DNA from: a virus
DNA: 42,933 bases
IMG/VR virus record: IMGVR_UViG_3300044641_003781
Span: 1 to 42,933 of that record
Direction: 5' to 3' (one strand)
The notes beneath the pieces were generated by a model, which had not been told where the DNA came from, made no database searches, and saw only the letters and a list, made by a program, of their open reading frames with translations. Positions 1 to 29,449 of the stretch are shown here, one piece after another. The position numbers and the translations under genes were made by a program. Position 1 is the first letter of the stretch. Each line of letters begins with the position of its first letter.

Positions 1-127
1 GGGCGCTGCTGGATCAGGTCATTGGCGGCCTGAACCGGGTTGTCCGCCTGGACGGCGATGGGCAGCTCCTCGTCGTCCAGCTGCTCGACGACCGCCAGGC
101 CCACGTCCGCCTCAGGGAGGGAGGGGT
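1..127. repeat. Terminal direct overlap, left copy
   Basis: These 127 bases are identical to 42807-42933. An exact overlap of 127 bases is what a de Bruijn assembler with k=127 leaves at the ends of a circular contig, so it most likely marks a closed (circularly permuted or terminally redundant) assembly, not a biological terminal repeat. It lies inside one open reading frame, which argues against a natural genome end here. Confidence 0.95.
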
Positions 128-8731: not shown

Positions 8732-9739
8732 CTAGGGGACCACGATCTTGTAGGCAGACTCAGCGCGGAGCACGCCCATGCCCAGGGCTTGGCGAGCAAC
8801 CATCAAGGTGGCTTGCATCTGGATGTTCCAGTCCCCGCTGGTGACCTGCAGAGAGGGGCTCAGCAGGGTCACAACACCCACGGCGTCGCGGTTGAAGATC
8901 AAGCCGCGGCACTTGGACAAGTTCTGAGCGTAGTCAGCGTTCTTGTCGCCGGTGACGTTGGTGTACGCCGGCTGGGTGACGTGGTTGGACATGAAGATGG
9001 GGATGCCCGCCACCTGCAGGGTCCGACCGGAAGCAATCGAACCGTTAGTGGTTCCACCGTTGAAGTCGGTGTTGATCGCTTTTGCCGACTGGGTGATGTA
9101 GAAGTATTCCTCAGGGGGGAACACGGCATACATCGAGTCGGTGGGCACGTCCTTCTTCTCGAAGTTGACGCGGGCATCGAAGATGCTGGCCACCAGTTCG
9201 TCGCCTTTGGCGGTGCTGGTAGCGGCCGCGTAGCCGGCAGACAGGGTCGTGCCAGCACCGATGCGACCTGCGTTGCCGGCCTTGGCCAGCGGTTCGGTCA
9301 CATTGGAAGCAGCGGCAAAGATCAGACGCGCAACGCGGCGGTCGTACTCATAGGCCAAGCTTCTGCCCAGCTCAGTTGTATAAATTTGCCTGACATCGTA
9401 GAAATTCATGAGCTCGTCGATCTGCGCGATGGCAGCGTCGGCGATCATCAGGCCATCGACTTCAATGACCCGCTCATTCAGGTCAGAAGGGCTATTGCCT
9501 TCCCCCAAAATAGGGACCCCTGGAGAATGGTAGCGAGCGCTCATCTTCCCGGTCAGGGGAAACGCTACGCTCTTGCCTCCTTTGATATTGCGTTCGCGGG
9601 TTTTTCCGCGAAATACCGTAGTCCGCAAGAAGGCGTCCAGCACCTCAGCGGCTCCAAGTTTCAGGAACAGGGCACGGTCGTCACCCGTGCCTTTGATCAT
9701 GCCAAGCCGCTGTAGGGCGGCATCGGGAGGAGTGGCCAT
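8732..9739 (-). CDS. Major capsid protein, T7 gp10-like
   Basis: A 335-residue capsid protein. It contains the conserved T7-like blocks FRGKTRERNIKGGKSVAFPL, YHSPGVPILG, VDGLMIADAAIAQIDELMNFYDVR and YEYDRRVARLIF, and later YAVFPPEEYFYITQS, RGLIFNRDAVGVV and MGVLRAESAYKIV. The fold is HK97-like; it forms the icosahedral shell on the scaffold. The ATG lies about 75 nt downstream of a 14-bp motif (9816-9829). No gp10B-type frameshift extension was identified. A strong terminator follows. Confidence 0.97.
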   Translation of the reverse strand: MATPPDAALQRLGMIKGTGDDRALFLKLGAAEVLDAFLRTTVFRGKTRERNIKGGKSVAFPLTGKMSARYHSPGVPILGEGNSPSDLNERVIEVDGLMIADAAIAQIDELMNFYDVRQIYTTELGRSLAYEYDRRVARLIFAAASNVTEPLAKAGNAGRIGAGTTLSAGYAAATSTAKGDELVASIFDARVNFEKKDVPTDSMYAVFPPEEYFYITQSAKAINTDFNGGTTNGSIASGRTLQVAGIPIFMSNHVTQPAYTNVTGDKNADYAQNLSKCRGLIFNRDAVGVVTLLSPSLQVTSGDWNIQMQATLMVARQALGMGVLRAESAYKIVVP

Positions 9740-9815
9740 TTCTAGAGAAGCAAGTGGTTGTTGAGGCCGCTTACCCCTTCACCGTCATGGGTTATCCCCC
9801 TAGGAGGGCCCACCG

Positions 9816-9829
9816 CTACAGGTCTGCAG
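9816..9829 (-). promoter_or_regulatory. 14-bp motif upstream of major capsid gene
   Basis: CTGCAGACCTGTAG on the minus strand, in the 106-nt gap between scaffold and capsid genes, about 76 nt before the capsid ATG. A dedicated promoter before the capsid gene also exists in T7 (phi10), which supports a promoter reading of this motif. Confidence 0.55.
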
Positions 9830-9845
9830 AGCTTCTGACAGGAAG

Positions 9846-10697
9846 CTACCCGAATACATCACTGGCCGCCAACATTTGCACAACCTTGGATCTGTAGGCC
9901 TCATCCACGTCGTACAGCCGGCGGCCCGATGAGTCGATCTTGTTCATCGCCTCGAGCACCTGGGCCTGGCTCTCGAAGGTCTTGGTAGTGGACGCCTTGC
10001 CGCTGCTCACCAGCTCAGGCTCCTTCAGCTCAGGCATGCGCTGGGTGGTGCCGATCGCCTGCTGCTGCAGGGCCCGCAGGGCCCAGCGGATCGCAGCCTT
10101 GTTGCCACTGTTGACCACGTCGTTGTAGTCAGCCAGGTCGTCTTTCGACAGGTTCTGCGCTGCCCATTGGCTGATCTCAGTGAACGACTCCTCGCCGCCG
10201 ACGAGATCCTTCATCTCGGCGATCTCGTTCTCGCTGAGCTCAGTGGCCTGGCTGCCACCGCCCTCGGCCAGGTAGCGCTCCACCACCGGACGGGGGATGC
10301 CAACGCCCTCCAGCTGAGCCATGAACGGCTCGATGTCCTGGCCCGCCTCATAGGCCGCGGCCATCTCGAAGGGGTTGAACTGGGCCTCCTCGAACTTGTC
10401 CGCCAGGAACTCGCCGTACTCCTTGACACCCTCCTCACGGGTGTAAGCCTTGGGCTGTGGAGACGAGGACTCTTCTGGGCTGGCCTCGTCGCGGGGCTGG
10501 CCCAGTTTTCTTTCAAGCTCCTGGTAGGCCCGCGCCAGTTCCTCGGGGCTGTTGAACTTGCCCAGGATCTTCTGGTCCTCCTGGCCCTGGGCCTCGGCCT
10601 GCTGCTCGGCAATGAACTCATCGAGCAGGGCCTCCTGACCTGGGGCGATCGGGCTTTCGCTGATCGCTTCAGCTGTGGACAGGCTGATGTCGCTCAT
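9846..10697 (-). CDS. Scaffolding (capsid assembly) protein, T7 gp9-like
   Basis: A 283-residue acidic, helical protein between portal and capsid genes. KILGKFNSPEELARAYQELERKLG is the characteristic N-terminal block of T7-like scaffolds, and the C-terminus (QAQVLEAMNKIDSSGRRLYDVDEAYRSKV, then a short tail) matches the capsid-binding end of the family. It should guide procapsid assembly and leave before maturation. The ATG overlaps the portal stop (ATGA). Confidence 0.93.
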   Translation of the reverse strand: MSDISLSTAEAISESPIAPGQEALLDEFIAEQQAEAQGQEDQKILGKFNSPEELARAYQELERKLGQPRDEASPEESSSPQPKAYTREEGVKEYGEFLADKFEEAQFNPFEMAAAYEAGQDIEPFMAQLEGVGIPRPVVERYLAEGGGSQATELSENEIAEMKDLVGGEESFTEISQWAAQNLSKDDLADYNDVVNSGNKAAIRWALRALQQQAIGTTQRMPELKEPELVSSGKASTTKTFESQAQVLEAMNKIDSSGRRLYDVDEAYRSKVVQMLAASDVFG

Positions 10698-12298
10698 TCG
10701 ATGGGTTGTTCGGGGGGCATTTGTTCAGCAGCCATCTGCTGCTCAATCGCAGCAGCGTTGGCTTGCTTCTGTGGGTCAGCCATGGGCGATGACATCGCCT
10801 GTTGAGCTAGGGCCATCTGCTGGGCGGCTTGTTGCTCTTGGGCAATTTGCTCGTCCGACTTCACCAATCCAAGGATGTCTACACCCATGGAGGATGCAAG
10901 CCTGCGGATCAGTTCACTCGGAACGATGTACTGGGGCACGGCGTCGGGAATGGTTTGACCGATCGTGTTCACGAAGCGGACCACCTTCTCGAGGTCGTTG
11001 TTCCGTCCCACGGCAGCCAGGCCCACGGACACCACTGGCCGCACCAGGTCCTTGGGCAGGGGCTTCATCTTCCCGGAGCGGATCAGGAGATCCAGCTTCC
11101 GGCTGACGTAGGGGGTCTGGAATTCGGTGGTGAGGATGGAGTAAATGGCGCCCAGGCTGTTCTCGATCTGGAGCGCCTGCAGCCTCACCTCTTCTGCTGT
11201 GGTGCGCTCCGAGTCGCGCACGTCAGCGAGCATGAAGGCCTGCGCCAGGCGGGCCTCGATGCGGGCCAGGCCCTGCATCGCAACACTGAGGTCGCCCGAC
11301 TTCTGCACCTGCAGGGCAGCCACGTCGTTGACATCGCCGGGCACAAATGCACCGTTGGCCGCCTCGGCCAGGGCCTTGGCCTTGGTGACGCCCGAAGGCT
11401 TCACCAGGAAGCGGATGGCGGCGCTGGCCAGGGAGCCCTCGGCGACAGCCTGGCTCAGGGCTTCAGCGGTCTGCAGGTCTGCCAGAGCAGCGCTCTCGAC
11501 ATAGCTCACGCCATACGGCTGGCCGTCCGTCCGTGACATGCGGAGGGGCATCCAGGGGTTGGAGTCCGCTGGCGCGGTGCCCTCAGTACCGGGGATGGGC
11601 TGGCCCTTCACTTCCTGCTGCCAGGTGATCCGATCGCCCTCCCACTGCACACGGGTGTAGATCTTCACCGTGCGGGCGTAGTCGCCAACCGGGTCGTCCT
11701 CTGAGCCGACAAGCCGTGCCACCTCGTCGTCGGACTCGAGGATGTCCTTCACCTTCTGGGGCAGGGTGTTGACTGCCAGCTCCTCGCAGGTGACCACCTC
11801 CAGCGGGTTGCCCATGGGGTCCCGGCTGCAGACGTAGCGGTTCAGGTGGTAGACCTTCAGGCCCTCCTTGCCCACATACAGCAGGACGTTGCCGGTGATG
11901 ATCAACCACAGCAGCGCCTCGTGAAAAGCCACGCGGTCGTTCGTGGCCTCGATGGACCGCAGCACCTCGCGCTCCATGTTGGCCAGGGCCGACTCGAGCT
12001 CGGACTTGGCCTCCAGGGGGATGCCCTGCTTGACCATCTCCACCTCGTTCAAGGCAAAGCGGAAGAACGATTCCGTCGGCGGGAGCAGGGCAAGAAGCAT
12101 GCGACTCGCCAGATTGAGACAGCCCCTGGCGCCGATGCCGTTCCACGGCAAAGGAAACGTTTCCTTGGTGCCGGTAGTCGGCTCGTTGCTGGCGGGGACC
12201 AGGTACGGAAGCGTGAGCTTCGAGGCCTGGCGCCCGCGGTCGAGGTAGTAGTTGCGGTCGGACTCGAGGGCCCGGTAACGCTGCTCTGCAGTTGCCAT
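10694..12298 (-). CDS. Portal (head-tail connector) protein, T7 gp8-like
   Basis: A 534-residue portal protein. Seen blocks: YRALESDRNYYLDRGRQASKLTLPYL at the N-terminus, PFPWNGIGARG-like sequence (here PLPWNGIGARGCLNLASRM), LLPPTESFFRF, ITGNVLLYVGKEGLKVYHLNRYVC, and SRTDGQPYGVSYVE. These are typical of T7-like connectors. The C-terminus is Gln/Ala-rich. It forms the dodecameric DNA channel and docks the terminase. It starts 2 nt after the previous gene and overlaps the scaffold start. Confidence 0.96.
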   Translation of the reverse strand: MATAEQRYRALESDRNYYLDRGRQASKLTLPYLVPASNEPTTGTKETFPLPWNGIGARGCLNLASRMLLALLPPTESFFRFALNEVEMVKQGIPLEAKSELESALANMEREVLRSIEATNDRVAFHEALLWLIITGNVLLYVGKEGLKVYHLNRYVCSRDPMGNPLEVVTCEELAVNTLPQKVKDILESDDEVARLVGSEDDPVGDYARTVKIYTRVQWEGDRITWQQEVKGQPIPGTEGTAPADSNPWMPLRMSRTDGQPYGVSYVESAALADLQTAEALSQAVAEGSLASAAIRFLVKPSGVTKAKALAEAANGAFVPGDVNDVAALQVQKSGDLSVAMQGLARIEARLAQAFMLADVRDSERTTAEEVRLQALQIENSLGAIYSILTTEFQTPYVSRKLDLLIRSGKMKPLPKDLVRPVVSVGLAAVGRNNDLEKVVRFVNTIGQTIPDAVPQYIVPSELIRRLASSMGVDILGLVKSDEQIAQEQQAAQQMALAQQAMSSPMADPQKQANAAAIEQQMAAEQMPPEQPIE

Positions 12299-13856: not shown

Positions 13857-14582
13857 TCAGGTTACCGGCGGGTTCCAGGGCTGCGCCCTTCCGTCCTGAT
13901 ACTCCCCAGCGCGAAGAATCCTGGCGCAGCGGGCCATTGCAACTGCGTAGTCCAGGTCCTTCTTTGCCTTCTCGTAGGCAGCCAGCACCACATTCCACAT
14001 CTCCAGCTCTGTAGTGCAGTCCTCGAGCATGCGCTCGGCCCGCACCACACCAAGGCCAGGGCAGCCGGGGTAACCGTCAGTGGCATCACCCGCCAGGGCT
14101 TGGATGTAGAAGCGGCGATCGGCGTCAGCCTGCGTGCTTTCGAGCAGCGTCCCGTCATCCTTCAGGTGGAGGCCGGGGATGGTGAGCAGGTCTTTGTCGC
14201 CGGAGACGATGACATCGCCCTCCTCGTAACTGACCCCGATCACGTCATCGCCCTCGAGGCTGTCGAGCTCGAGGGATTCCCAGATGTCAGCGGCCCAGGC
14301 CCTCAGCTGCTTGTAGCCAGCAGGCCGGCGCTTGCCCCGGCGGTTGGACTTGTAGCTGGGCCAGAAGCTGTAGCGGAAGTTGGTCTTAGACCCGAAGCAC
14401 AGCGCCGGCTGGTGATCCGGGAGCGTGTCACGCACCCAGTCCATGCAGTCCAGGAAAGCGTTTTTGGCGATGGAGTGGTCGCACACATAGGTCCACACCT
14501 CGGGCTGCCACTCGGCCTCGAGCTCGCCCTTGGTGGCCGAGCGGAACAGGAACAGATCAACGTCAATAAGGGCCCTGCTCAT
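13857..14582 (-). CDS. 5'-3' exonuclease, T7 gp6-like
   Basis: A 241-residue protein from MSRALIDVDLFLFRSA; the ATG at 14582 overlaps the upstream stop (ATGA), so this start is preferred over one 12 codons earlier. Metal-binding motifs of the FEN/5'-nuclease family are visible: LIDVDLFLFR, NFRYSFWPSYKSNR, LEGDDVIGV, VSGDKDLLTIPG and LAGDATDGYPGCPGLG (the helix-hairpin-helix region). In T7 the homologue removes primers and degrades host DNA to nucleotides. It closes the DNA metabolism block. Confidence 0.95.
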   Translation of the reverse strand: MSRALIDVDLFLFRSATKGELEAEWQPEVWTYVCDHSIAKNAFLDCMDWVRDTLPDHQPALCFGSKTNFRYSFWPSYKSNRRGKRRPAGYKQLRAWAADIWESLELDSLEGDDVIGVSYEEGDVIVSGDKDLLTIPGLHLKDDGTLLESTQADADRRFYIQALAGDATDGYPGCPGLGVVRAERMLEDCTTELEMWNVVLAAYEKAKKDLDYAVAMARCARILRAGEYQDGRAQPWNPPVT

Positions 14583-15031
14583 CGGTCGGCCTCCCGCTCC
14601 AGCTTCAGCGCAGTCCATGTGTGTTCGCCTTCCTTGAGCCAGGCCACCACCTCGCGGATCGCGGCGCGGGCTTCAGGCTCCCAGTTGACGGCCTCGTCGT
14701 CCCAGCAGGAAGAGTCTTCGCATCGACTGATGGCGATGGCGACCCGCTTCAACAACGAGCCGCTGACCATTTTGTTGACCTCACCAATATGGTCAGATCC
14801 CTTGGCAGCACTGGGCTCAGGGGTTGAACTCCTAATTTGGCTTGGATTAGGAGTTGGCTTGGAGGTGGCTTCGAGCGCTTCAACCCGCATCCACAGCCTG
14901 TCAATCAACCTGGAGTGAGTGTCAACATTCTTGCCCCATTCCAGCGTTGCCAGGCGCTGGGTTTCATACTTGCGCTCCAGCGCCTTGACCCTGGTGCAGA
15001 GCTCTTCGTGAGTGGCCTTGTGTTCAGTCAC
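14579..15031 (-). CDS. Hypothetical coiled-coil protein
   Basis: A 150-residue protein starting with GTG at 15031, overlapping the previous stop (GTGA). Residues 1-55 have heptad-like spacing (EELCTRVKALERKYETQRLA, SRLIDRLWMRVEALEA), a Pro/Ser linker follows, and the C-terminal half is acidic and helical. No family recognised. Its middle contains a perfect 10-bp inverted repeat at DNA level (14828-14856). Lies between a zinc ribbon gene and the exonuclease. Confidence 0.6.
   Translation of the reverse strand: MTEHKATHEELCTRVKALERKYETQRLATLEWGKNVDTHSRLIDRLWMRVEALEATSKPTPNPSQIRSSTPEPSAAKGSDHIGEVNKMVSGSLLKRVAIAISRCEDSSCWDDEAVNWEPEARAAIREVVAWLKEGEHTWTALKLEREADR
14828..14856. repeat. Perfect 10-bp inverted repeat inside a coding region
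   Basis: AACTCCTAAT and ATTAGGAGTT flank a 9-base loop TTGGCTTGG, and the loop sequence recurs directly after the right arm. It lies in the Pro/Ser linker of the coiled-coil protein and is more AT-rich than its surroundings. It could be an mRNA hairpin or a protein site; there is no T tract for termination. Confidence 0.8.
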
Positions 15032-15240
15032 GCTGCAGTCCTCACGGTGAAAGTTGGCTTACCGACAGCCTTCCGCTGCCAGCTGAGTTGCCAGGTTTCG
15101 AGTGGCTTTTCCCCTGAGGCCAGGGTGTAGAAGCGGTAGTCGCACTCCAGGCATTTGCGCCTGCGCAGTCGTTCGCCCTCGGCCCCCACAAAGCTCGAGG
15201 TGCAGCGGGTTTCGCTGTTGCACTTGGGGCAGCAGGTCAT
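15028..15240 (-). CDS. Small zinc-ribbon protein
   Basis: A 70-residue protein. MTCCPKCNSETRCTSSF, then RRRKCLECDYRFYTLASGE, gives two CxxC pairs in the arrangement of an NrdR/Ogr-like zinc ribbon, with arginines between them. It is too short for a full NrdR (no ATP-cone). A role in binding nucleic acid or the transcription machinery is plausible but not shown. Overlaps both neighbours by ATGA/GTGA junctions. Confidence 0.7.
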   Translation of the reverse strand: MTCCPKCNSETRCTSSFVGAEGERLRRRKCLECDYRFYTLASGEKPLETWQLSWQRKAVGKPTFTVRTAA

Positions 15241-15674
15241 GGCTTGTCCTCAACAAAGGCGGCACACAGGGTGGCGGCACGGCCGCGGCTGAACTTGCAC
15301 TCGGGGAAGCCCAGGGTGCAGTTCTCGTAGGCGAAGTGGATGCACTCGCTGCAGTCGCGCTTGGGCAGCTCGCGCCAGCGGCGGATGCTCACGCCCAGGG
15401 CCTCGAGCCGGTCCTGGGTCAGCGCCTTGCGGGGACCGGGCAGGCTGCCACCGCCCTTGTGAACGGGCCGGGGCCTATCCCTCAGGTCCAGGTCGGTGTG
15501 ACCCCAGGATGTCCAGCGGACAATGCGACTGACCTGGCCGCAGCTGACGCTGTAATCCGCGGCCAGCTCGGAGCAGGAGGCGCCGTCCAGGTGGCGCAGC
15601 CTGAGCTCGCGGATTGTGGCCTCGTCGAACTTGGAGCGGGTGTTGCCCTCGCCGCTTTGAAAGTTGTGGTTCAT
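15237..15674 (-). CDS. HTH protein with C-terminal cysteine cluster
   Basis: About 145 residues from MNHNFQSGEGNTRSKFDEAT; ATG 15674 overlaps the upstream stop. Residues ~15-60 (IRELRLRHLDGASCSELAADYSVSCGQVSRIVR) read as a helix-turn-helix of the resolvase/transposase or HNH-associated type found in phage genes. The C-terminal 45 residues hold CSEC, then three further cysteines (ENC, PEC, TLC), a probable zinc-binding unit. The start is preceded by an ACC-repeat element. Probably a DNA-binding regulator; target unknown. Confidence 0.65.
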   Translation of the reverse strand: MNHNFQSGEGNTRSKFDEATIRELRLRHLDGASCSELAADYSVSCGQVSRIVRWTSWGHTDLDLRDRPRPVHKGGGSLPGPRKALTQDRLEALGVSIRRWRELPKRDCSECIHFAYENCTLGFPECKFSRGRAATLCAAFVEDKP

Positions 15675-15922
15675 GGTTCGGTGGTGGTGGTTGTTCCCTT
15701 GGCCCCGCCGGTCCACTGATCGGAATCGCGCAGCAGGCGATCAGCGATCTCGTGGACCATGGTGTGGCAGATGCGGGCCTGCTCTTTGGCTGGCGCCCAG
15801 GCGCGGACCTCCTCGGACACCAGCGCCAGAACGGCCTGCATCCGGGCGGTGGCGTCGACGGTGAGATCGTCCGTACCCCAGTAGGCGTCGAGGCAACGGG
15901 CGATAAGGGTTGAGCTGGTCAT
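15671..15922 (-). CDS. Hypothetical protein (83 aa)
   Basis: MTSSTLIARCLDAYWGTDDL starts an 83-residue, mainly helical, acidic protein ending in a poly-Thr tail (GTTTTTEP) that is encoded by the ACC repeat. ATG 15922 overlaps the upstream stop (ATGA). No recognised family. It is one link of a chain of five small overlapping genes between primase-helicase and exonuclease. Confidence 0.6.
   Translation of the reverse strand: MTSSTLIARCLDAYWGTDDLTVDATARMQAVLALVSEEVRAWAPAKEQARICHTMVHEIADRLLRDSDQWTGGAKGTTTTTEP
15678..15692 (-). promoter_or_regulatory. ACC-repeat element before HTH gene start
   Basis: Minus-strand AACCACCACCACCGAACC lies within the 3' end of the preceding gene, immediately before ATG 15674. 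The same ACC(n)-GAACC sequence precedes other starts (integrase, gene at 26124). A possible unstructured translation enhancer. Confidence 0.4.
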
Positions 15923-16095
15923 TCGTCTTCCATCTCCAGGACGTGTTGCATGGCGCGGATGTAGCCGTTCCAGAAGCTGGCGACGCATGCTGCGCCCTCC
16001 TGCTCGGCCGTGTTGCAGCGCCTGTAGGCGTCGATCAGGCAGCGCTTGATCGCTGCACGGCCAACGTCCAGCTGCTCCTCACTCTGCTGGTTCAT
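15919..16095 (-). CDS. Hypothetical protein (58 aa)
   Basis: Short gene encoding MNQQSEEQLDVGRAAIKRCL and continuing through ACVASFWNGYIRAMQHVLEM to a stop that overlaps the next ATG (ATGA). It is helical with a Trp/Tyr-containing amphipathic segment. It overlaps the preceding gene by 17 nt. Supported by tight packing and compatible start/stop junctions; function unknown. Confidence 0.55.
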   Translation of the reverse strand: MNQQSEEQLDVGRAAIKRCLIDAYRRCNTAEQEGAACVASFWNGYIRAMQHVLEMEDE

Positions 16096-16252
16096 TTTTG
16101 ACCTCCCATGAATTGAGAACGTGAACGGTTGACATGTCTGGCCAGCGGCTCTTCATGACCCGCTTGACTTCGCGGAAGTCTTTGGCGTGGATGTTGTGAA
16201 TCACCATGGGCCTGTGACCCGGCAGCTTCACTTGCAGGATGTAGCTCCTCAT
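16079..16252 (-). CDS. Hypothetical protein (57 aa)
   Basis: Encodes MRSYILQVKLPGHRPMVIHN followed by a basic helical segment (AKDFREVKRVMKSRWPDMST) and a short C-terminus. The beta-then-helix pattern recalls small nucleic-acid-binding phage proteins, but no family is recognised. The ATG at 16252 overlaps the previous stop (ATGA). A competing frame over the same bases lacks such junctions and was rejected. Confidence 0.6.
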   Translation of the reverse strand: MRSYILQVKLPGHRPMVIHNIHAKDFREVKRVMKSRWPDMSTVHVLNSWEVKNEPAE

Positions 16253-16425
16253 GATTCGGGCTTGATGTTGCGTGTGTCGTAAACGCGCGTGACCCTGTTG
16301 ACCGATCCAACGCTCCAGGAAACAGAAGCGCTGTTGTCGTAGACGTGAGAGATCACGCCCTTCTTCCAGCCGTCAGCGGTGTAGAAGCGCACCTTCTGCC
16401 CCCGCCTGATCTGGTTCCACCTCAC
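16249..16425 (-). CDS. Small SH3-like protein (58 aa)
   Basis: Starts with GTG at 16425, overlapping the primase-helicase stop (GTGA). The sequence RWNQIRRGQKVRFYTADGWK, then KGVISHVYDNSASVSWSVGSV, looks like a compact beta-barrel of SH3/KOW type, often nucleic-acid or protein binding. No family name can be given. The next gene overlaps its stop by ATGA. Confidence 0.6.
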   Translation of the reverse strand: MRWNQIRRGQKVRFYTADGWKKGVISHVYDNSASVSWSVGSVNRVTRVYDTRNIKPES

Positions 16426-18020
16426 CAGTCCACCCCTGGCTCGCTCCACTTCTGCTCGAACTGCTGGGTCTTCTCGTCAAAGAGGAACGACCCGGCATAA
16501 CCACAGCGCCCCAGCATCCGGTTCTTGAGGCAGTAGGAGTGGGTGGTCTGATCGCCACGCCTGCGGCCCAGGGCCCAGATCGTGTCGGCCAGCTGAACCA
16601 CGCTGTGGCTGCCGCGGATGTCATGCAGCTCGGGGATGCCCCCGTCCTCCATGTTCTTGGTCTGGCTGGAGCTGCGGTTGAGGTGGTTGATCGCCACCAC
16701 GGTGCATTTGGTTGCAGCAATGAAGCTGCGGATCTTGGTCACCATGGCGTCCAGGTGCCGCGTGTCCTGGGCCAGCCCTGAGCCGAGGATCGTGAGGTGA
16801 TCCAGGAACAGGAACTCACAGCCGAGTGATCGGACCATGTAGTTCATGCGCTGCAGGATCACCGTCTCGTCCAGGGATCCGAAGTGATCAAACAGCTCGA
16901 GGGTGCCGCTGCCGGTAACAAACCGATCGGCGTCCTCGATGCGCTTGAGCTCCTCAGAGGTCAGGCCCTGGTAGCTGGTGCGGGCATGGAGCTGGATGCC
17001 AGCGGCCAGGCCGACGAAACGGAAGATGGACTCATCGACTGTTTCCTCGAGGCCGATCCAGCCCACCCGCTTGCCGCGCTCCATCAGGCCAAGGGCCAGG
17101 GCGCGAGCGAAGGTGGTCTTGCCCACCCCACTGCCGGCCACCAACACCACCAGCTGGTTGTCGTAGAAGGGGACCTTGTCGTTCCACATGGTGAACGAAC
17201 AGGGCGTGGGCTTTCGCTCCGGCGGCTTGAGCGCCAGGCCCTGAAAGGCCGAGGCGGACTTGATGCCATCGGGGCGAATCTCCTGGGCCCCGCGAATCGC
17301 CTCCCAGATGGCAGGTGATCCGAGCTCGGTGAGCGTCTCGTTGGCGTCCTTTTTGGGGAACACCACCCGGCGCACCTGACCCACCGGGAACAGGGCCACG
17401 ATCTGCTGGGCCGCGGCCTGGCCGGCGTCGTCCATGTCGGTGGCGACGTAGACGGTCTTGAACTGGAGCAGTTTCTCGAGCCGCTCCTTGCAGAACTTCT
17501 CGAGGTGCTGCGCTCCAGCCGGGCCGGAGATGCCGATCACCTTGCCCTTGGTGCCATAGGTGATCGAGGGGGCATCGAACTCCCCCTCGCAAATGGCGAC
17601 GGCGTCGTGCTGTTCGGGGTTGGCGAGGTGTTCGCCGAACCCGATCACGTTCTTGGCCTGGCCTGTCCACCAGATCTTCTTGGCCTTGTCCCTGAACTTC
17701 TGCCCGCATACAGCCAGGGAGCTGCTGCGGTAGTCGAAGCAGACCGTGCCACCCTCGAGCTGGTTGATGCCGTATTGCTCGAGGATCTGAGCAGGCAGGC
17801 CCCGATACTCCCCGCTCCAGGGGGTGGGGGTGATTGCCTTCATTGGCGGCAACTGGCGTGGTTTGGTCCGGACGGTTGATGCCGGGACCTCTTTGACGTA
17901 GGTGCTGCAGACCCAGCACCAGCCGTTCGGGATGTCCGTCTTAGAGCGGTAGACCGCCAGACCGTCAGAGCTGCCGCAAGCAGCACAAGGCCAATGACCG
18001 AGGAACCTCCCTTCACTCAT
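16422..18020 (-). CDS. DNA primase-helicase, T7 gp4-like
   Basis: A 532-residue bifunctional protein. The start ATG at 18020 has GGAGGGG directly upstream and gives MSEGRFLGHWPCAACGSSDG. Domains in order: zinc-binding primase finger (Cys at about 12, 15, 35, 38), TOPRIM with AICEGEFDAPS (~143) and VYVATDMDDAG (~190), then RecA-like helicase with Walker A AGSGVGKTTFA (~295), a Walker B-like CEFLFLDHLTIL, and DIRGSHSVVQLADTIWALGR. It unwinds DNA and makes primers at the fork. In T7 it acts with the phage DNA polymerase, which is missing here, so it must work with a host polymerase. Confidence 0.96.
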   Translation of the reverse strand: MSEGRFLGHWPCAACGSSDGLAVYRSKTDIPNGWCWVCSTYVKEVPASTVRTKPRQLPPMKAITPTPWSGEYRGLPAQILEQYGINQLEGGTVCFDYRSSSLAVCGQKFRDKAKKIWWTGQAKNVIGFGEHLANPEQHDAVAICEGEFDAPSITYGTKGKVIGISGPAGAQHLEKFCKERLEKLLQFKTVYVATDMDDAGQAAAQQIVALFPVGQVRRVVFPKKDANETLTELGSPAIWEAIRGAQEIRPDGIKSASAFQGLALKPPERKPTPCSFTMWNDKVPFYDNQLVVLVAGSGVGKTTFARALALGLMERGKRVGWIGLEETVDESIFRFVGLAAGIQLHARTSYQGLTSEELKRIEDADRFVTGSGTLELFDHFGSLDETVILQRMNYMVRSLGCEFLFLDHLTILGSGLAQDTRHLDAMVTKIRSFIAATKCTVVAINHLNRSSSQTKNMEDGGIPELHDIRGSHSVVQLADTIWALGRRRGDQTTHSYCLKNRMLGRCGYAGSFLFDEKTQQFEQKWSEPGVDW

Positions 18021-18225
18021 CCCCCTCCAAGCTGGCGGGGACAAGGGCCATGGGGTCAATCATGTAGCCCACGTTGTTGCCAACGAAGGCCACCCTGTAC
18101 TCCTTGGTGGTGAATGTCTTGGCGCACTTCAGGCAGGTCCGGTAGCGGAGAACCGTGCGGCCTTCTTCCTGGGTGCGTGTCTGCTCGGTGCGGGTGCGGT
18201 CGTGGCCGCAGTGTGGGCAGTTCAT
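18013..18225 (-). CDS. Zinc-ribbon protein, NrdR N-terminus-like
   Basis: A 70-residue protein: MNCPHCGHDRTRTEQTRTQE, then RYRTCLKCAKTFTTKEYRV. The CPxCG...R.C..C...F.T.E arrangement is that of the NrdR zinc ribbon without its ATP-cone, as in many small phage proteins. It lies between the RusA-like and primase-helicase genes, overlapping the former by ATGA. Likely nucleic-acid binding; precise role unknown. Confidence 0.7.
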   Translation of the reverse strand: MNCPHCGHDRTRTEQTRTQEEGRTVLRYRTCLKCAKTFTTKEYRVAFVGNNVGYMIDPMALVPASLEGDE

Positions 18226-18581
18226 TCCCAGATGACTTTCATGTAGATGGACTGTTTGTTGGTGGGACTCTTCTCCCACCTGAGGGCCATCGCTCCGACG
18301 ATGGTGACCCGGTCATCGCTCCAGATCAGGCCATTGCCTGCGTCGAGGATTGCCCCGGCCAGGTTGTCCAGATCGCCCCGGCCAGGACCGAAGAACTTGA
18401 GCACCAGGCAGTTCACAAAGGGGAGCGGTGGTGCTGTCCACCACTCACCCATCTGCGCCCTGACCTTCTGCTTCCACTCCATGTAGGCCGGTGGCATGTA
18501 GGGCCTGCCCCTACCTGGAGCTGTTCTGGGCCGCGCCTTGGACATCAGCGGCACCTGCAGCAGGAAGTCGGCGGTCTTCAC
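18222..18581 (-). CDS. RusA-like Holliday junction resolvase
   Basis: A 119-residue protein starting with GTG at 18581, 1 nt after the SSB stop. It opens with a strand typical of the family (FLLQVPLMSKARPRT), followed by KQKVRAQMGEWW, and contains the key block GRGDLDNLAGAILDAGNGLIW-SDD, the RusA 'DxDN...DAL.G....DD' signature with its metal-binding aspartates. The family cleaves four-way junctions. Here it occupies the position of T7 endonuclease I (gp3), so it likely debranches replicating DNA before packaging. Confidence 0.9.
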   Translation of the reverse strand: MKTADFLLQVPLMSKARPRTAPGRGRPYMPPAYMEWKQKVRAQMGEWWTAPPLPFVNCLVLKFFGPGRGDLDNLAGAILDAGNGLIWSDDRVTIVGAMALRWEKSPTNKQSIYMKVIWE

Positions 18582-18582
18582 C

Positions 18583-19152
18583 TCAGAACGGGATCACAGG
18601 TTCCTGGACGTAGCCGCCTTCAACCACGCCGAACAACTCCTCGTCGTCGGTGGCTTTGACGTACTCAACCAGGTCCACGACCATCACCTTGCGGGGCTGC
18701 AGGGTGATGCCCACGCCACCGGGGCGGCCCTTGCCCCAGGGGTAGACGTTGAAGGCCACGATGATCTTGGAGCCGTTGCCGATCAACTTGCTCCGGTCCC
18801 AGGGGTTCTGCCGGGAGTCCATGATCACGGGCGCCTCGGTGCGGCGGGGCTCGTCGCCTGGCCGCTTGGCCTCAAAGGTGCGGTCCTCGAGCTTGAACTT
18901 GAAGACCTGGATCTTGTCGTCGTCCTTGTCCACGCGAATGGGCATCGCGTACTGGTTGCGCTTGGAGTCGCCCTCGTGGACCTCGTTAAAGATCTCCTCG
19001 AGCTGAGCCTCGAACTCGAGAGCTTCCTTGGAGCCCACGGGCAGCAGCAGCTCGCAGCTGTAGGCGTTGGGCTTGGCCTCGTCGAACTGGGGCGCGGGCT
19101 CGAGGAGCTTGCACCAGCGGACCTCCGCGATGGGGGTCTTCCAGAGCTTCAT
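18583..19152 (-). CDS. Single-stranded DNA-binding protein, gp2.5-type position
   Basis: A 189-residue protein, MKLWKTPIAEVRWCKLLEPA, with an OB-fold-like strand pattern, a central charged segment (RVDKDDDKIQVFKFKLEDRT) and GSKIIVAFNVYPWGKGRPGG, a block seen in phage ssDNA-binding proteins. The C-terminus is acidic in part (TDDEELFGVVEGG). Its place between RNA polymerase and resolvase matches T7 gp2.5. It should coat single strands and coordinate replication proteins. A 14-bp motif ends 2 nt before the ATG and another lies 53 nt further upstream. Confidence 0.85.
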   Translation of the reverse strand: MKLWKTPIAEVRWCKLLEPAPQFDEAKPNAYSCELLLPVGSKEALEFEAQLEEIFNEVHEGDSKRNQYAMPIRVDKDDDKIQVFKFKLEDRTFEAKRPGDEPRRTEAPVIMDSRQNPWDRSKLIGNGSKIIVAFNVYPWGKGRPGGVGITLQPRKVMVVDLVEYVKATDDEELFGVVEGGYVQEPVIPF

Positions 19153-19154
19153 GT

Positions 19155-19168
19155 CTGCAGGTCTGTAG
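19155..19168 (-). promoter_or_regulatory. 14-bp motif adjacent to SSB start
   Basis: CTACAGACCTGCAG, followed by AC and the SSB ATG. If it is a promoter with initiation at its final G, the SSB transcript would be almost leaderless. Confidence 0.5.
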
Positions 19169-19205
19169 TGGACCGGCAGAACGTAGCGGTAGTAGCGCCG
19201 CTTGT

Positions 19206-19219
19206 CTACAGCTGTGTAG
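19206..19219 (-). promoter_or_regulatory. 14-bp motif between RNA polymerase and SSB
   Basis: CTACACAGCTGTAG on the minus strand, just after the RNA polymerase stop. It is the first of two family members in a 70-nt gap, consistent with separate expression of the replication genes from the early RNA polymerase gene. Confidence 0.55.
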
Positions 19220-19222
19220 AGC

Positions 19223-21655
19223 TCACATGAAGCAGTAGGGCGAAGTGCCGATGCTGCCAGGGCAGAGAGTCCCAGTGAGAGGCGGCTGAGGCAGCTTTAA
19301 GACTCCAGTGGTGTCAATGATTTCGGCCCTAGTAGCAGCCAGCCAGTCGGTCTTATAGAGCTCGCGGAGTTCGTCATGCAGCACCGAGTGCATCCGGTCC
19401 GCCCAGGCCGGAACTGTTGCAAAGCAGTCGTGGTTGGTGAGCAGCGGCATCCCCAGCTCTCCACCCCTGCACACGATCATCTGGCACAGGGCTGCGTCCA
19501 TTCCGTGGATGAACCCGGCGCCCACCCCCTTGCAGATCAGCCGGGCGCTGAGCTCGGCCTCGGGCGGCTGGTCCAGGATCATCGTGTAGCTCCGCTTGCC
19601 GAAGAGCGACATCGCCACCCGCCCCTTGACCGGCATCCGCTCAGCGATGCGCACAGGGAATCCGGTCGGAGTCGTCCACTGCATGGGGTGGCCAGCCTTC
19701 ACCACCTTCTTGGTGACGGCCCGCAGCCAGTCGGTCACCGCAATGCACGGGGCCACCACCTCGAGCAGCTCGGCCCGCAGCAGCTTGGTCAGGTAGCGGC
19801 AGGGCCAGGCCAGCAGCAGGCCGCTGAGCCGTGGCTCCACCTCGCCGATGAGTTGCTCGAGCTTGTCCATCAGGGCTTCCTGGATCGACAGCGGGGAGGC
19901 CCCGTAGGGAGTGCTGAGCACCGCGTGTTTGGTCCACGAACGGTCGATGCCGATCTCCAGCCAGTGCTGAGCTAACTGCCGCACCTTGGGGTCCTCGTCC
20001 TGCAGGTCCACCTTCAGCCGTCCATGCACCCGCTGGGCGATGTGCTCGTACAGGTCGCTGGGCGTGGTGCCGAACAGGTTGCAGAAGCGGCCCACGCTGG
20101 AGTCCCTGGCCAGGGCGGCCAGGTGCCCGCAGCCTGAAGTGGTCTGGTCCAGGCGGATCGGCACCCCGCTGCGGTGCTCGGGGTCCAGGCTCAGCAGGTA
20201 CAACTCGCGGCACACCTGCAGCAGCTGCCACGGGTCCTTGCCGTTGCGCCACAGCTCGAGGCGGTTGAGCGGGTCCTTGCCGATGGCGATGTAGCGCTGG
20301 TGCTCCTGCCGGCCCAGGGCCCTGCGGTCTGCCCACGACATCCGGCCGCAGCCGCTGTGGCCAGCGGCAGCCATGAGCATCCAGTCCAGGGCCCGCTCAT
20401 CGACCGGCATGCCCTCGGCAAAGGAGAGGCATGCCTTCTCGTGGTCCTCGGACTGGTGGCTGGCGTAGCGGTTGGACGTGAACAGCCGGGACCTGTAGTC
20501 CAGGTAGTACGCCTGCCAGATCGTCTCGCCTTGGGCCTCCTCGCACAGCTGGATGCTGCGCTCGATCTTGATCCGCCTCGGGCCGTTCTCCCGCAGGTCG
20601 CGGTCAGCCAGCCAGGCCTCCTTATTGCGGATCTTCCACTCGAGCTCACTGGCCTCCTGGCTCAGTAGCTCCGGCATCGGCCGCGGCGTCCTGGTGCAGG
20701 GGAACAGCAGCTGGATGCCGGAGTCCCACGCCTGCCGCTGGATGCCCACGATCCAGGGGTCGATGCGCATCGGCGTGTTCTGCAAGGTGTTCACCACCTG
20801 CAGCACCTGGCTCAGGTCCGCCTTCTCGAGGTACTGGGTGGCCGCCTCCTCGCGGTCGCCCATGTCCTGCAGCGGCACCTTCACCAGCGTCTGCTCGTTG
20901 CCCAGGTGGCCGCCGCCCCGGATGCCGGTCCACGGCCGCGGCGGGCACAGCATCGGGGTGCGCAGCGGCTGGTAGCCGCGGGGCGGGCAGGCCTTGATGA
21001 ACTCGAGGGCCTTGGCGCTGGGCCCCACCATCCGGACCTGCCGCAGGCCCCGGCGCTGCAGCTCGATGGCCAGCAGGTCGGTGTTGTCGTTGATCAGGTC
21101 CACCAGCAGGGCCCCGACCTCGAACCGCTCGCGGTTGGTCCACCGCATGGTGGGGCAGCCGAGCAACTCCATCATCCGGTCGCTCACCAGCCGGCCGCGG
21201 TGCCCCTTGAACTTGGCCCGCATCCTTCTGTACCCGAGGGGCTCCTTCGCCTCGAGCCGCATGGCCCGGCCCTCGAGTTCAAGTGCGTAGCCCACGTTCT
21301 GACAGACCGCCACGAACTTCATCCGGCGGGTGAGTTTGTCGAGCACCGCGGCCAGGGCGATGGCTGCGATCTTTTTGGGGTCGCCGTATTGCGCAACCAG
21401 GGGCAGCACCGATGCGTGGGGGCCCGGCTTTCCTGGCTGCAACCAATAAGCGCAGAGGGTGTCATTCACAGCCTTGGCGACTAGATCGCAGCGCTCCTCA
21501 AACAGCACCTGGCCATAACGCAGGCGGGACTCTGCTCCCTGTTCCTTGAGTCTTCGCTGGCCGGAGTCACGGGCAGATCGGGCTCGATCCCACTCCTGCC
21601 GCTCCCTCTGTACCTGCCGTTCCTCGATCCGCGATGCGTCCGCAGAAAGCGTCAA
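19223..21655 (-). CDS. Single-subunit DNA-dependent RNA polymerase, T7 gp1-like
   Basis: An 810-residue T7-type RNA polymerase. Visible motifs: YYLDYRSRLF near residue 385 (the DxxGR motif, but with Ser for Gly), motif A IRLDQTTSGCGHLAALARD near 500 with the catalytic Asp, motif B DRSWTKHAVLSTPYG near 575 with its Lys, and motif C LTNHDCFATVP near 740 with the second Asp; the C-terminus ends in SPYCFM. It transcribes phage genes from its own promoters. The only workable early start is TTG at 21655, since a stop lies just upstream in frame. It follows the integrase/attP region, as in integrase-bearing cyanopodoviruses. Confidence 0.95.
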   Translation of the reverse strand: MTLSADASRIEERQVQRERQEWDRARSARDSGQRRLKEQGAESRLRYGQVLFEERCDLVAKAVNDTLCAYWLQPGKPGPHASVLPLVAQYGDPKKIAAIALAAVLDKLTRRMKFVAVCQNVGYALELEGRAMRLEAKEPLGYRRMRAKFKGHRGRLVSDRMMELLGCPTMRWTNRERFEVGALLVDLINDNTDLLAIELQRRGLRQVRMVGPSAKALEFIKACPPRGYQPLRTPMLCPPRPWTGIRGGGHLGNEQTLVKVPLQDMGDREEAATQYLEKADLSQVLQVVNTLQNTPMRIDPWIVGIQRQAWDSGIQLLFPCTRTPRPMPELLSQEASELEWKIRNKEAWLADRDLRENGPRRIKIERSIQLCEEAQGETIWQAYYLDYRSRLFTSNRYASHQSEDHEKACLSFAEGMPVDERALDWMLMAAAGHSGCGRMSWADRRALGRQEHQRYIAIGKDPLNRLELWRNGKDPWQLLQVCRELYLLSLDPEHRSGVPIRLDQTTSGCGHLAALARDSSVGRFCNLFGTTPSDLYEHIAQRVHGRLKVDLQDEDPKVRQLAQHWLEIGIDRSWTKHAVLSTPYGASPLSIQEALMDKLEQLIGEVEPRLSGLLLAWPCRYLTKLLRAELLEVVAPCIAVTDWLRAVTKKVVKAGHPMQWTTPTGFPVRIAERMPVKGRVAMSLFGKRSYTMILDQPPEAELSARLICKGVGAGFIHGMDAALCQMIVCRGGELGMPLLTNHDCFATVPAWADRMHSVLHDELRELYKTDWLAATRAEIIDTTGVLKLPQPPLTGTLCPGSIGTSPYCFM

Positions 21656-21767: not shown

Positions 21768-21816
21768 ATCCAGCGGATTTTAAGTCCGCTGCGTATGCCA
21801 ATTCCGCCATGCTCCC
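21768..21816 (-). other. attP-like site: partial tRNA-Leu(UAA)
   Basis: On the minus strand the segment begins GGGGAGCATGGCGGAATTGG and continues through the anticodon arm GCGGACTTAAAATCCGC (loop CTTAAAA, anticodon UAA) to CTGGATC. This is the 5' half of a leucine tRNA: acceptor strand, D-arm and anticodon arm, with no variable arm, T-arm or 3' acceptor following. It lies about 100 nt downstream of the integrase gene. In cyanophage P-SSP7, as I recall, a 42-bp match to the host tRNA-Leu sits in the same place and is the presumed attP. A functional tRNA is excluded because the molecule is incomplete. Confidence 0.85.
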
Positions 21817-21919: not shown

Positions 21920-22786
21920 TCAGAAGCCTTCCAGCACCGTGACGCAGTCCTCCAGGGCCTCCACGTTCAGGTGGACGTACCGCTGCAGGGCGGTCACGTC
22001 GTCCCACCCGCCCCAGGCCTGGAGCTTCTGCAGGGTGATGCCTCCAGCGGACAGCCGGCTGGCGCAGGTGTGGCGCAGGATGTGGATGGTCACCTGTTTG
22101 TCATCGCCGAGGCCCAGGGCGTCCTTGGCTGCGTCAAACAGGTGCCGGTACTGGTCGTAGCCGTAGCTCCACACCCTTTCGTCGCGGTGCGTTGGCGAGA
22201 CGTGGTGCCGAACGGCCTCGTAGGCCTTGCCGGTCAGCCGGATGGTCCTGTTCTTGGGGCCCGCCTTTGACTTGGTCAGGTGAAAGGTCACCCGCTTCAG
22301 GGTCAGGTTCACGTCGCCCGAAACCAGCTTCTCGGCCTCACCCCAGCGGCAGCCGGTGTCGATCAGGAAGCGGAACAGGGCCGCAGCCTCGGGCTGCTCC
22401 ATCCGCTCGAACCACAGGCAGAAGGCCTCCTCCTCCTGCGGGCTGATCACCCGGTCTTTGCGGCGGCTGTTGGCCAGCTGCTTGGGCATGGCCGGAACGC
22501 CCTGGATCCAGCCCCTGGCCGAGGCGTCGGTGAGCATCGCCCGCAGGGCTGAGCGCTTCTTGTTGACCGTCCCCGGCGAGTTCCCCGCCCGCAGGAAGTG
22601 GTCCATCATCGACTCGACCAGCTCGTAGTTGATCTGCAGCAGTGGGCGCCACGGGCCCAGCTGCTCAACCACCTGCTTGCTGTAGATCGCTGCGGTCCTG
22701 GCGTAGGCCGTGTCCCTCCAGCGCCGCTGCATGCTGTTTTCCCTGGCGTCCTGGATCGTGTAGCCGGTTCCTTGCTTGCGGGCCAT
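21920..22786 (-). CDS. int: Tyrosine recombinase (integrase)
   Basis: A 288-residue integrase. The N-terminal half is a SAM-like core-binding domain (YSKQVVEQLGPWRPLLQINY, SPGTVNKKRSALRAML). The catalytic half shows Arg in LIDTGCRWGEAEKL, Lys in HLTKSKAGPKNRTIRL, HILRHTCASRL (His-x-x-Arg), a Gly-Trp pair in AWGGWDDV and the nucleophile Tyr in LQRYVHLN. All catalytic residues appear present. It should recombine the tRNA-Leu-like site downstream with the host tRNA gene. ATG 22786 follows the MarR-like stop by 3 nt, and an ACC-repeat element precedes it. Confidence 0.95.
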   Translation of the reverse strand: MARKQGTGYTIQDARENSMQRRWRDTAYARTAAIYSKQVVEQLGPWRPLLQINYELVESMMDHFLRAGNSPGTVNKKRSALRAMLTDASARGWIQGVPAMPKQLANSRRKDRVISPQEEEAFCLWFERMEQPEAAALFRFLIDTGCRWGEAEKLVSGDVNLTLKRVTFHLTKSKAGPKNRTIRLTGKAYEAVRHHVSPTHRDERVWSYGYDQYRHLFDAAKDALGLGDDKQVTIHILRHTCASRLSAGGITLQKLQAWGGWDDVTALQRYVHLNVEALEDCVTVLEGF

Positions 22787-22789
22787 GGT

Positions 22790-23137
22790 TCACGGGACTG
22801 GTTCGGTGGTGGTGCGCTCGAGGGCAAACTCGAGCTGTCGGATGATTTTTTTGCCGCGGGGTGACAGGCGCACCCGGTAGCGGCGTCCTTCCCTGGGGTC
22901 GTGGAACACCTCGAGGAGGTCAAGGCCTGCGCGTCCGGTGCGGTGCTGGTCCGCCAGGGCGGTCACAGTGCGCGACACAGAAGCGTTGGAGAGACCTAAC
23001 GCCTCCTCCAGCTCCCGGTAAGTACAGCTTTCGGTGGCCGCGACCTGGAGGAACAGCTGCGCGTGATGGAGCGGAATGGCCGGCTCGCACAGGCCCGCAA
23101 AGATTTCCAGAGCAGCTGCCAGTTGACGTAGGCCCAC
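22790..23137 (-). CDS. MarR-like winged-helix regulator
   Basis: A 115-residue protein, MGLRQLAAALEIFAGLCEPA. Residues ~25-60 (HHAQLFLQVAATESCTYREL, EEALGLSNASVSRTVTALAD) form a typical MarR-type winged helix, and VFHDPREGRRYRVRLSPRGKKII gives the wing with the usual 'G-R-R..-V-x-L-x-x-x-G' ending. The 3' end encodes TTTEP within an ACC repeat just before the integrase ATG. Being co-transcribed with the integrase, it may regulate integration or early genes; this is inference. Confidence 0.75.
   Translation of the reverse strand: MGLRQLAAALEIFAGLCEPAIPLHHAQLFLQVAATESCTYRELEEALGLSNASVSRTVTALADQHRTGRAGLDLLEVFHDPREGRRYRVRLSPRGKKIIRQLEFALERTTTEPVP
22802..22814 (-). promoter_or_regulatory. ACC-repeat element before integrase start
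   Basis: Minus-strand GCACCACCACCGAACC, inside the last codons of the MarR-like gene and about 15 nt before the integrase ATG. Same pattern as before the genes at 15674 and 26124. Confidence 0.4.
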
Positions 23138-27706: not shown

Positions 27707-29449
27707 ATGAAGTGGGAGCCGTTGCCGGAACCGTTGGATCGGTTCGTGTACTTCGCGGCGTACTGCATCCAGGAGCTGGGGCTGGCCGATAGCCCTACCA
27801 AGCAGCAGTGCGCAGTGTGCGACTGGATGGAGACAGGCCCCAGTCGGACGTTGACGGTGGCGTTCCGGGGCCTGGGGAAATCGCTGCTGGCGTCGTTGTA
27901 TGCGCTGTGGCGACTGCGGATGGACCCGCAGGAAAAGATCTTGGTGGTGTCGGCGACGGCAGTGAAGTCCACGGACTTCACGAACTTCATGCTGAAGTGC
28001 ATCGGCGAGATTGATGTCCTTCACTGCCTGGCCCCTGGCGGGGAGAACAGGTATTCGGCGATGGCCTTTGACGTGGGCCCGGCGGTGATTGAGCAGAGCC
28101 CCTCGGTGCGGTCGATGGGGGTGATGGGGTCAGTGACGGGTCAGCGGTGCAGCTGCGCAATCCTCGATGACATCGAGACGGTGGCCAACGTGATCACCCA
28201 GCTCAAGCAGGAGCGGGTGGCGCATGCGGTGACGGAGATCGAGTCGATCCTCAAGCCGGATGAAGGGCAGCTGCTGCCGCGGAAGATCCTGTACCTGGGC
28301 ACGCCCCACACGGAGGCGAGCATCTACCTGCGACTGGTGCGTGAGCGTGGCTACGCCGCGCGGTACTGGCCGTCGCTGTATCCGGAGGAGACGGACTGCT
28401 ACGACGGGAACCTGTGCCCGCGGATCACCGCGGAGATGGAAGCAGACCCATCACTGGTGGGTGAGCCGACGGATCCGGAGCGCTTCAGCCACGAGGACAT
28501 CCTGACCCGGCAGGCCAGCCTGACTCGGGCCAGCTTCCTGCTCCAGTTCCAGCTCAACACCCGCTTGAGCACCCTGGACAAATACCCCATCCGGCTGGGG
28601 GACCTGGTGGTGATGGATCTGGACGGCAAGGCATTGCCGGAGGTGGTGGTCCACTCGAGCCAGCCCGATGCCCGGATCCAGGACCTGGTGTGCATCGGCA
28701 TGGGTGCCGACAGCCATTACCACCGCCCTGGCTGGGTGCATGGCTGGGTCACGAAGGAAGAAACCTGGCGCTGCGTCCTGGCCATCGACCCTGCCGGCCG
28801 GGGGGCGGATGAACTGGCGTGGGCGGTGCTGGGCGAGCTCAACGGCAACCTGTTCCTGCTGGAATCCGGTGGCACCACCAAGGGCTACGCGCATGAGGTG
28901 CTCGAGCACCTGGCGCAGGTGGCCAAGCGCTGGGACGTGAACTACGTCCTGGCTGAAAGCAACATGGGCGATGGCATGTTCAGCGCCCTACTGAAGCCTG
29001 TGCTGAACCGGGTGCATCCCTGCTCGATCGAGGAGGTGCGCCACAACCAGCGCAAGGAGATTCGCCTGTGCGACACCCTCGGCCCGGTGATCCAGCAGCA
29101 CCGGCTGGTGGTGGCGACCCGTGTGATCCGCCAGGACTACCGCATGGCCGAGGAGGACCCGGAGAACGGCCACGTCCGGAGCCTGATGTATCAGCTCAGC
29201 CGGCTCACCGCAGAGCGTGGCTGCCTGGCCTTCGATGACCGGGCCGATGTCCTGGCCATTGCGGTGGCCTTCTTCGTTGAAGCTGCGGCCCAGGACCAGA
29301 GCCGGGCCAAGCAGCAGCGGGAAGACGAGCTATTCCAGGCCTCGATTGATGCGTGGATGGATGAAACCCACGCCCAGGTGGATGCCTTGGCCCTGGGGTG
29401 GCGGCCCCAGGGCGGTCACCGCACCTATGGCGGTGTCAGGCGGCGGTAG
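27707..29449 (+). CDS. Terminase large subunit, T7 gp19-like
   Basis: A 580-residue packaging motor. Walker A is TVAFRGLGKSLLASL near residue 52, Walker B CAILDDIETVAN near 152, and the coupling region LYLGTPHTEASIY near 200. The RNase H-like nuclease shows LAIDPAGRGADELAWAVLGE near 359, LAESNMGDGMFSALLKPVLN near 412 and AFDDRADVLAIAVAF near 508 with acidic residues. It pumps and cuts DNA. It is on the plus strand, opposite to portal, capsid and the small subunit; its 3' end overlaps the small subunit gene tail to tail by 14 nt. All key residues look intact. Confidence 0.96.
   Translation: MKWEPLPEPLDRFVYFAAYCIQELGLADSPTKQQCAVCDWMETGPSRTLTVAFRGLGKSLLASLYALWRLRMDPQEKILVVSATAVKSTDFTNFMLKCIGEIDVLHCLAPGGENRYSAMAFDVGPAVIEQSPSVRSMGVMGSVTGQRCSCAILDDIETVANVITQLKQERVAHAVTEIESILKPDEGQLLPRKILYLGTPHTEASIYLRLVRERGYAARYWPSLYPEETDCYDGNLCPRITAEMEADPSLVGEPTDPERFSHEDILTRQASLTRASFLLQFQLNTRLSTLDKYPIRLGDLVVMDLDGKALPEVVVHSSQPDARIQDLVCIGMGADSHYHRPGWVHGWVTKEETWRCVLAIDPAGRGADELAWAVLGELNGNLFLLESGGTTKGYAHEVLEHLAQVAKRWDVNYVLAESNMGDGMFSALLKPVLNRVHPCSIEEVRHNQRKEIRLCDTLGPVIQQHRLVVATRVIRQDYRMAEEDPENGHVRSLMYQLSRLTAERGCLAFDDRADVLAIAVAFFVEAAAQDQSRAKQQREDELFQASIDAWMDETHAQVDALALGWRPQGGHRTYGGVRRR

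Follow-up and report, generated by a model that had tools for sequence, protein, structure and literature searches.

The window analyzed here is the whole stretch of 42,933 nucleotides of IMG/VR record IMGVR_UViG_3300044641_003781. It holds a complete T7-like phage with a genome of 42.8 kb, closed into a circle, and a GC content of 64%. The replication block is encoded on the minus strand in the order integrase, RNA polymerase (RNAP), single-stranded DNA-binding protein (SSB), RusA, Zn-ribbon protein, gp4, seven short ORFs, exonuclease, and portal. The features referred to below are as follows.

1..127, no strand: direct repeat of 42807-42933, 127 bases with exact identity; the assembly overlap that closes the circle
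10694..12298, minus: portal (head-tail connector); phrog_449 1.4e-149
13857..14618, minus: gp6 5'-3' exonuclease; PF02739 1.6e-8, phrog_107 1.5e-46
14579..16449, minus: interval holding the DNA polymerase in other T7-like phages; here only seven short ORFs (150, 70, 159, 105, 58, 57, and 66 aa)
16422..18059, minus, probable start 18020: gp4 primase-helicase; phrog_239 1.1e-111; ends in ...EPGVDW, without a [DE][F/Y] tip
18013..18279, minus: small Zn-ribbon protein upstream of gp4; BLAST matches in relatives, PF22811 in the S-SRP02 and S38-C3 homologues
18222..18581, minus: RusA Holliday junction resolvase; PF05866 2.4e-9
18583..19152, minus: gp2.5-type SSB; phrog_112 1.3e-19; C terminus ...EPVIPF at 18583-18603
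19223..21655, minus: single-subunit T7-type RNAP; PF00940 2.1e-46, phrog_414 1.3e-135
21920..22786, minus: tyrosine integrase; PF00589 5e-16
22790..23137, minus: MarR-like regulator; phrog_9665 5.4e-26
27707..29449, plus: terminase large subunit; phrog_38 7.1e-79

The contig is judged to be closed because its ends are identical over 127 bp and an ORF of 1,591 aa runs in frame across the join, from 1409 down via the junction to 39440. The length of 127 is probably the assembler's k-mer. A preliminary description of this DNA had taken the end overlap to mean that no segment is missing, and the spanning ORF bears this out. That a polymerase segment was lost or collapsed in assembly can be dismissed almost entirely, given this ORF and the fact that 74 further contigs, as well as the isolate S-SRP02 with its circular genome, are likewise without the gene. 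The junction ORF itself has a local match to phrog_21, which is named portal protein, yet the real portal lies at 10694-12298.

The DNA polymerase gene is truly absent from the phage. In six-frame searches of the window, no match was obtained at E<=10 to PF00476 (family A), PF00136 (family B), or PF07733 (Pol III alpha), while the same PF00476 search detected the positive control P-SSP7 at 1.5e-35. No polymerase family was matched among the scanned window proteins, including those scanned from the seven short ORFs between exonuclease and gp4. The other large proteins matched gp12, portal, capsid, terminase, or fibre families or no family, and none matched a polymerase. The profile search over families A, B, and C that the preliminary description had proposed thus agrees with its two claims, namely that the exonuclease-gp4 interval holds seven short genes in place of a polymerase and that none of the remaining large proteins is one. 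Its list of retained genes (RNAP, SSB, primase-helicase, exonuclease, and resolvase) was also correct, with the qualification that the resolvase is RusA and not T7 endonuclease I. A highly divergent phage polymerase hidden in an unannotated protein was considered, since several window proteins have no family match and the same option has been kept for the polymerase-less MPP-C cyanopodoviruses (PMC9860041). It is nevertheless very improbable: the unmatched large proteins sit among virion genes, the replication interval offers only ORFs of 57-159 aa, and the tips that dock a T7-type polymerase have been lost (discussed below).

The window shows the single-subunit RNAP and the T7-type head, tail, and terminase genes of the Autographiviridae; the family trait it lacks, a family A polymerase between gp4 and gp6, is usual but not universal. 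The named genomes closest to the window are MedDCM-OCT-S37-C6, S31-C1, S38-C3, and Synechococcus phage S-SRP02; the nearest relatives are classed in the same family and are also without a polymerase. Identity of the window RNAP to its counterparts was 43, 42, 40, and 31% for S37-C6, S31-C1, S-SRP02, and S38-C3, respectively, and did not exceed 45% for any relative found. A search for close relatives with the window RNAP alone as query returned no match. An alignment-based scan yielded 80 IMG/VR loci, and the 74 underlying records, many of them fragments and 48 of them 15.8-58.6 kb long, were searched for PF00476. The family was found neither in these 74 records nor in the four named genomes, and it was found in 8/8 polymerase-bearing T7-like phages (P-SSP7 and seven further). 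Relatives with the same gap, which the preliminary description had suggested looking for, therefore exist. They belong to the S-SRP02-like cluster and uvMED G9 (Oinezvirus, Nohivirus, and Stopalavirus; PMC8790148), which form one lineage with the window as judged by RNAP, SSB, RusA, exonuclease, portal, and capsid, and no examined member has a polymerase. RusA following SSB without a DNA polymerase is the arrangement of this lineage, present in the window, although one subgroup has no RusA. The lineage is widespread, aquatic, and related to cyanobacterial phages.

The same gene order of RNAP, SSB, nuclease, gp4, and, further on, exonuclease, often with MarR and integrase, is seen in P-SSP7 and Syn5 (MPP-B and MPP-A) and in Pelagibacter phage HTVC019P. 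Unlike the window, these phages have a family A polymerase and acidic -DF/-DY docking tips.

A gene named "DNA polymerase I" is annotated in S-SRP02 (L003:22389-23129, 246 aa) and in S37-C6 (L001:20647-21378, 243 aa). Both products align end to end with the window exonuclease, at 54 and 49% identity, respectively. Because the alignment with gp6 exonuclease is full-length, the name is wrong and the two genes are gp6 exonuclease orthologues. "DNA polymerase" was among the three markers of a tree in the S-SRP02 paper (PMC8790148), and that tree may have used the exonuclease instead. A separate S-SRP02 gene annotated as "DNA polymerase III beta subunit" (L003:10903-11607) has a marginal PF02767 match (E 0.0065, below the cut-off).

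The lineage, with the window included, was monophyletic in an RNAP tree (48 rows, SH-aLRT 100) and also in a tree of portal plus capsid (15 rows, 100/100). The position of the window differs between the two. In the RNAP tree it is a deep branch inside the subgroup that carries gp4, whereas the virion proteins place it beside two gp4-less relatives, L040 and L055, with 81% identity to L040. Replication blocks thus appear to have been exchanged between virion backbones. Over 8732-12298 the window portal and capsid are 77 and 85% identical to those of L040, as against 41% for RNAP.

Loss of the polymerase has a precedent. Cai et al. (PMC9860041, 2022) described 18 isolated cyanopodoviruses without DNA polymerase, termed MPP-C, and we did not find PF00476 in the MPP-C genomes P-SCSP1u and P-SCSP2. 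The kind was therefore already known, and the present lineage is a second, broader polymerase-less T7-like group. The view in the preliminary description that the strategy is unusual for its group holds for T7-like phages at large; within its own lineage the window is ordinary. MPP-C (P-SCSP1a-u and P-SCSP2) resembles the window in being T7-like, in keeping RNAP, gp4, and exonuclease, and in having a gp4 without a [DE][F/Y] tip. The MPP-C genomes are smaller (37-38 kb, a range that excludes the 42.8-kb window) and lower in GC, their SSB retains the T7-type -EF/-DF end, which the window lineage does not, and P-SCSP1 has endonuclease I where the window lineage carries RusA. In the best trees polymerase-bearing phages separate MPP-C from the window lineage, but AU tests do not reject their grouping as one clade (p 0.064 and 0.18), so the polymerase losses in the two groups represent either one or two events.

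In T7 the C-terminal tail of gp4 binds the polymerase gp5 (PMC8835902, PMC8472574), and the gp2.5 tail has been implicated in binding both gp5 and gp4 (PMC5686142). These tails are altered in the polymerase-less lineage, which is new here. Counted as distinct proteins, a [DE][F/Y] tip ends gp4 in 45/55 polymerase-bearing phages, 0/32 lineage members, and 0/2 MPP-C phages, and it ends SSB in 49/52, 0/76, and 2/2, respectively; coming from related sequences, these counts amount to one or two evolutionary events. The gp4 tip is also missing in 10 of the 55 polymerase-bearing phages.

The window SSB ends in ...EPVIPF, much as bacterial SSB does, where the T7 type has an acidic -DF. The E. coli SSB ends in DDDIPF (PMC5928155), and lineage SSBs often end similarly in EEIPF or DDIPF. 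A P[F/W] end is present in 54 of the 76 lineage SSBs (36/42 without a detected gp4 and 18/34 with gp4). Many gp4-bearing members, as well as MPP-C, have an SSB without the PF ending. None of the polymerase-bearing IMG/VR controls has this ending, but two polymerase-bearing named phages, ProddE (DDVPF) and RHEph01 (DDDIPF), do, and the bacterial SSB-like tip was accordingly rejected as an exclusive sign that the polymerase has been lost. The PF ending is enriched in the lineage rather than diagnostic, and the kinship of the sequences leaves few independent events behind it. A short T7-like contig, which stops ahead of the gp4/polymerase region, also encodes an SSB ending in DDDEIPF (L170:6427-7230).

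The window gp4 is 62-66% identical to those of S31-C1 and S37-C6. By contrast, S-SRP02 and S38-C3 have no gp4, which was found in 11 of the 48 long records. A sister subgroup is thus without gp4 as well as polymerase, and a conserved protein of ∼178 aa stands in its place, both of which are new here. This protein occupies the position of gp4 in 44/48 gp4-less loci and in 0/36 gp4-bearing loci; the two are mutually exclusive in the lineage. Among the four exceptional gp4-less loci are L027 and L028; their SSBs cluster with the SSBs of phages that carry gp4, and both contigs stop shortly past SSB. Conserved homologues include L064:14233-14769. In the gp4-less subgroup the Zn-ribbon forms part of a protein of ∼200 aa. 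Searches for relatives of the ∼178-aa protein found none in Pfam, PHROG, or the PDB and no sequence relative outside the lineage. Its structural model (mean pLDDT 82) gave no significant Foldseek match beyond its own family; several of the weak, non-significant matches (E 1.6-7.5) are annotated as replisome organizer or G39P helicase inhibitor, a likeness that can be taken only as a hint.

We consider it likely that the window phage truly lacks the polymerase and that DNA synthesis, at a fork opened and primed by gp4, falls to a replicative enzyme of the host, with Pol III the best candidate, the docking tips having been lost for want of gp5. The need for a host polymerase, already claimed in the preliminary description, is supported along with the gene absence. 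The phage still encodes enzymes of its own for transcription and recombination, together with an SSB and a primase-helicase. Because the retained gp4 has both a primase and a helicase domain, the phage likely opens and primes the fork itself. The C-terminal tips of gp4 and gp2.5 that dock T7 polymerase would have been lost because no gp5 is present, and the SSB tail would have drifted toward an ending like that of bacterial SSB, by which it may dock proteins of the host replication machinery. The most economical source of DNA synthesis would be the Pol III replisome of the host, because close relatives lack both gp4 and gp5; use of the complete host replisome fits the loss of gp4 in the sister subgroup.

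Normally gp4 partners a cognate family A enzyme, and for this reason host DNA polymerase I, which belongs to the family of T7 gp5, remains a candidate at a gp4-driven fork such as that of the window, where gp4 is retained. Host Pol I is also among the three options given for MPP-C, together with host Pol III and an unrecognised enzyme (PMC9860041). We regard it as unlikely, because gp4 no longer has the tip for docking a family A enzyme and the sister subgroup, without gp4 too, points to the whole host replisome. Lack of a polymerase gene might mark a defective or satellite element that uses the polymerase of a helper phage, but the window has genes for capsid, portal, tail, terminase, and lysis, and one member of the lineage, S-SRP02, has been isolated as a phage of Synechococcus (PMC8790148), which leaves a helper with scarcely any likelihood. 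The 64% GC of the window would suit freshwater picocyanobacteria as host.

Beyond synthesis by host Pol III at a gp4-driven fork, a broader and much more tentative scheme is that the T7-like lineage sheds its replisome stepwise. The polymerase would have been lost in all members; in one subgroup the ∼178-aa protein might replace gp4 and hand the origin to the host helicase, and the gp2.5 tail might converge on the bacterial SSB tip and recruit the host replisome. The T7 replisome is a textbook example of a self-sufficient machine. A natural lineage that keeps helicase-primase and SSB and discards the polymerase, with matching tail changes, makes the re-coupling of phage helicase and SSB to a host polymerase directly testable. 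It is also a second group of cyanophage-related podoviruses that surveys based on DNA polymerase overlook.

A tRNA-Leu(UAA)-like fragment consisting of a D-arm and an anticodon arm lies between the integrase and RNAP genes (21771-21813, minus strand) and is a possible attP. It was rejected as a clue to the host, its exact 38-base form being unmatched in genome contigs and its relaxed form being generic across phyla. A tRNA is annotated in the same neighbourhood in S31-C1, LUZ100, and a Limnohabitans phage.
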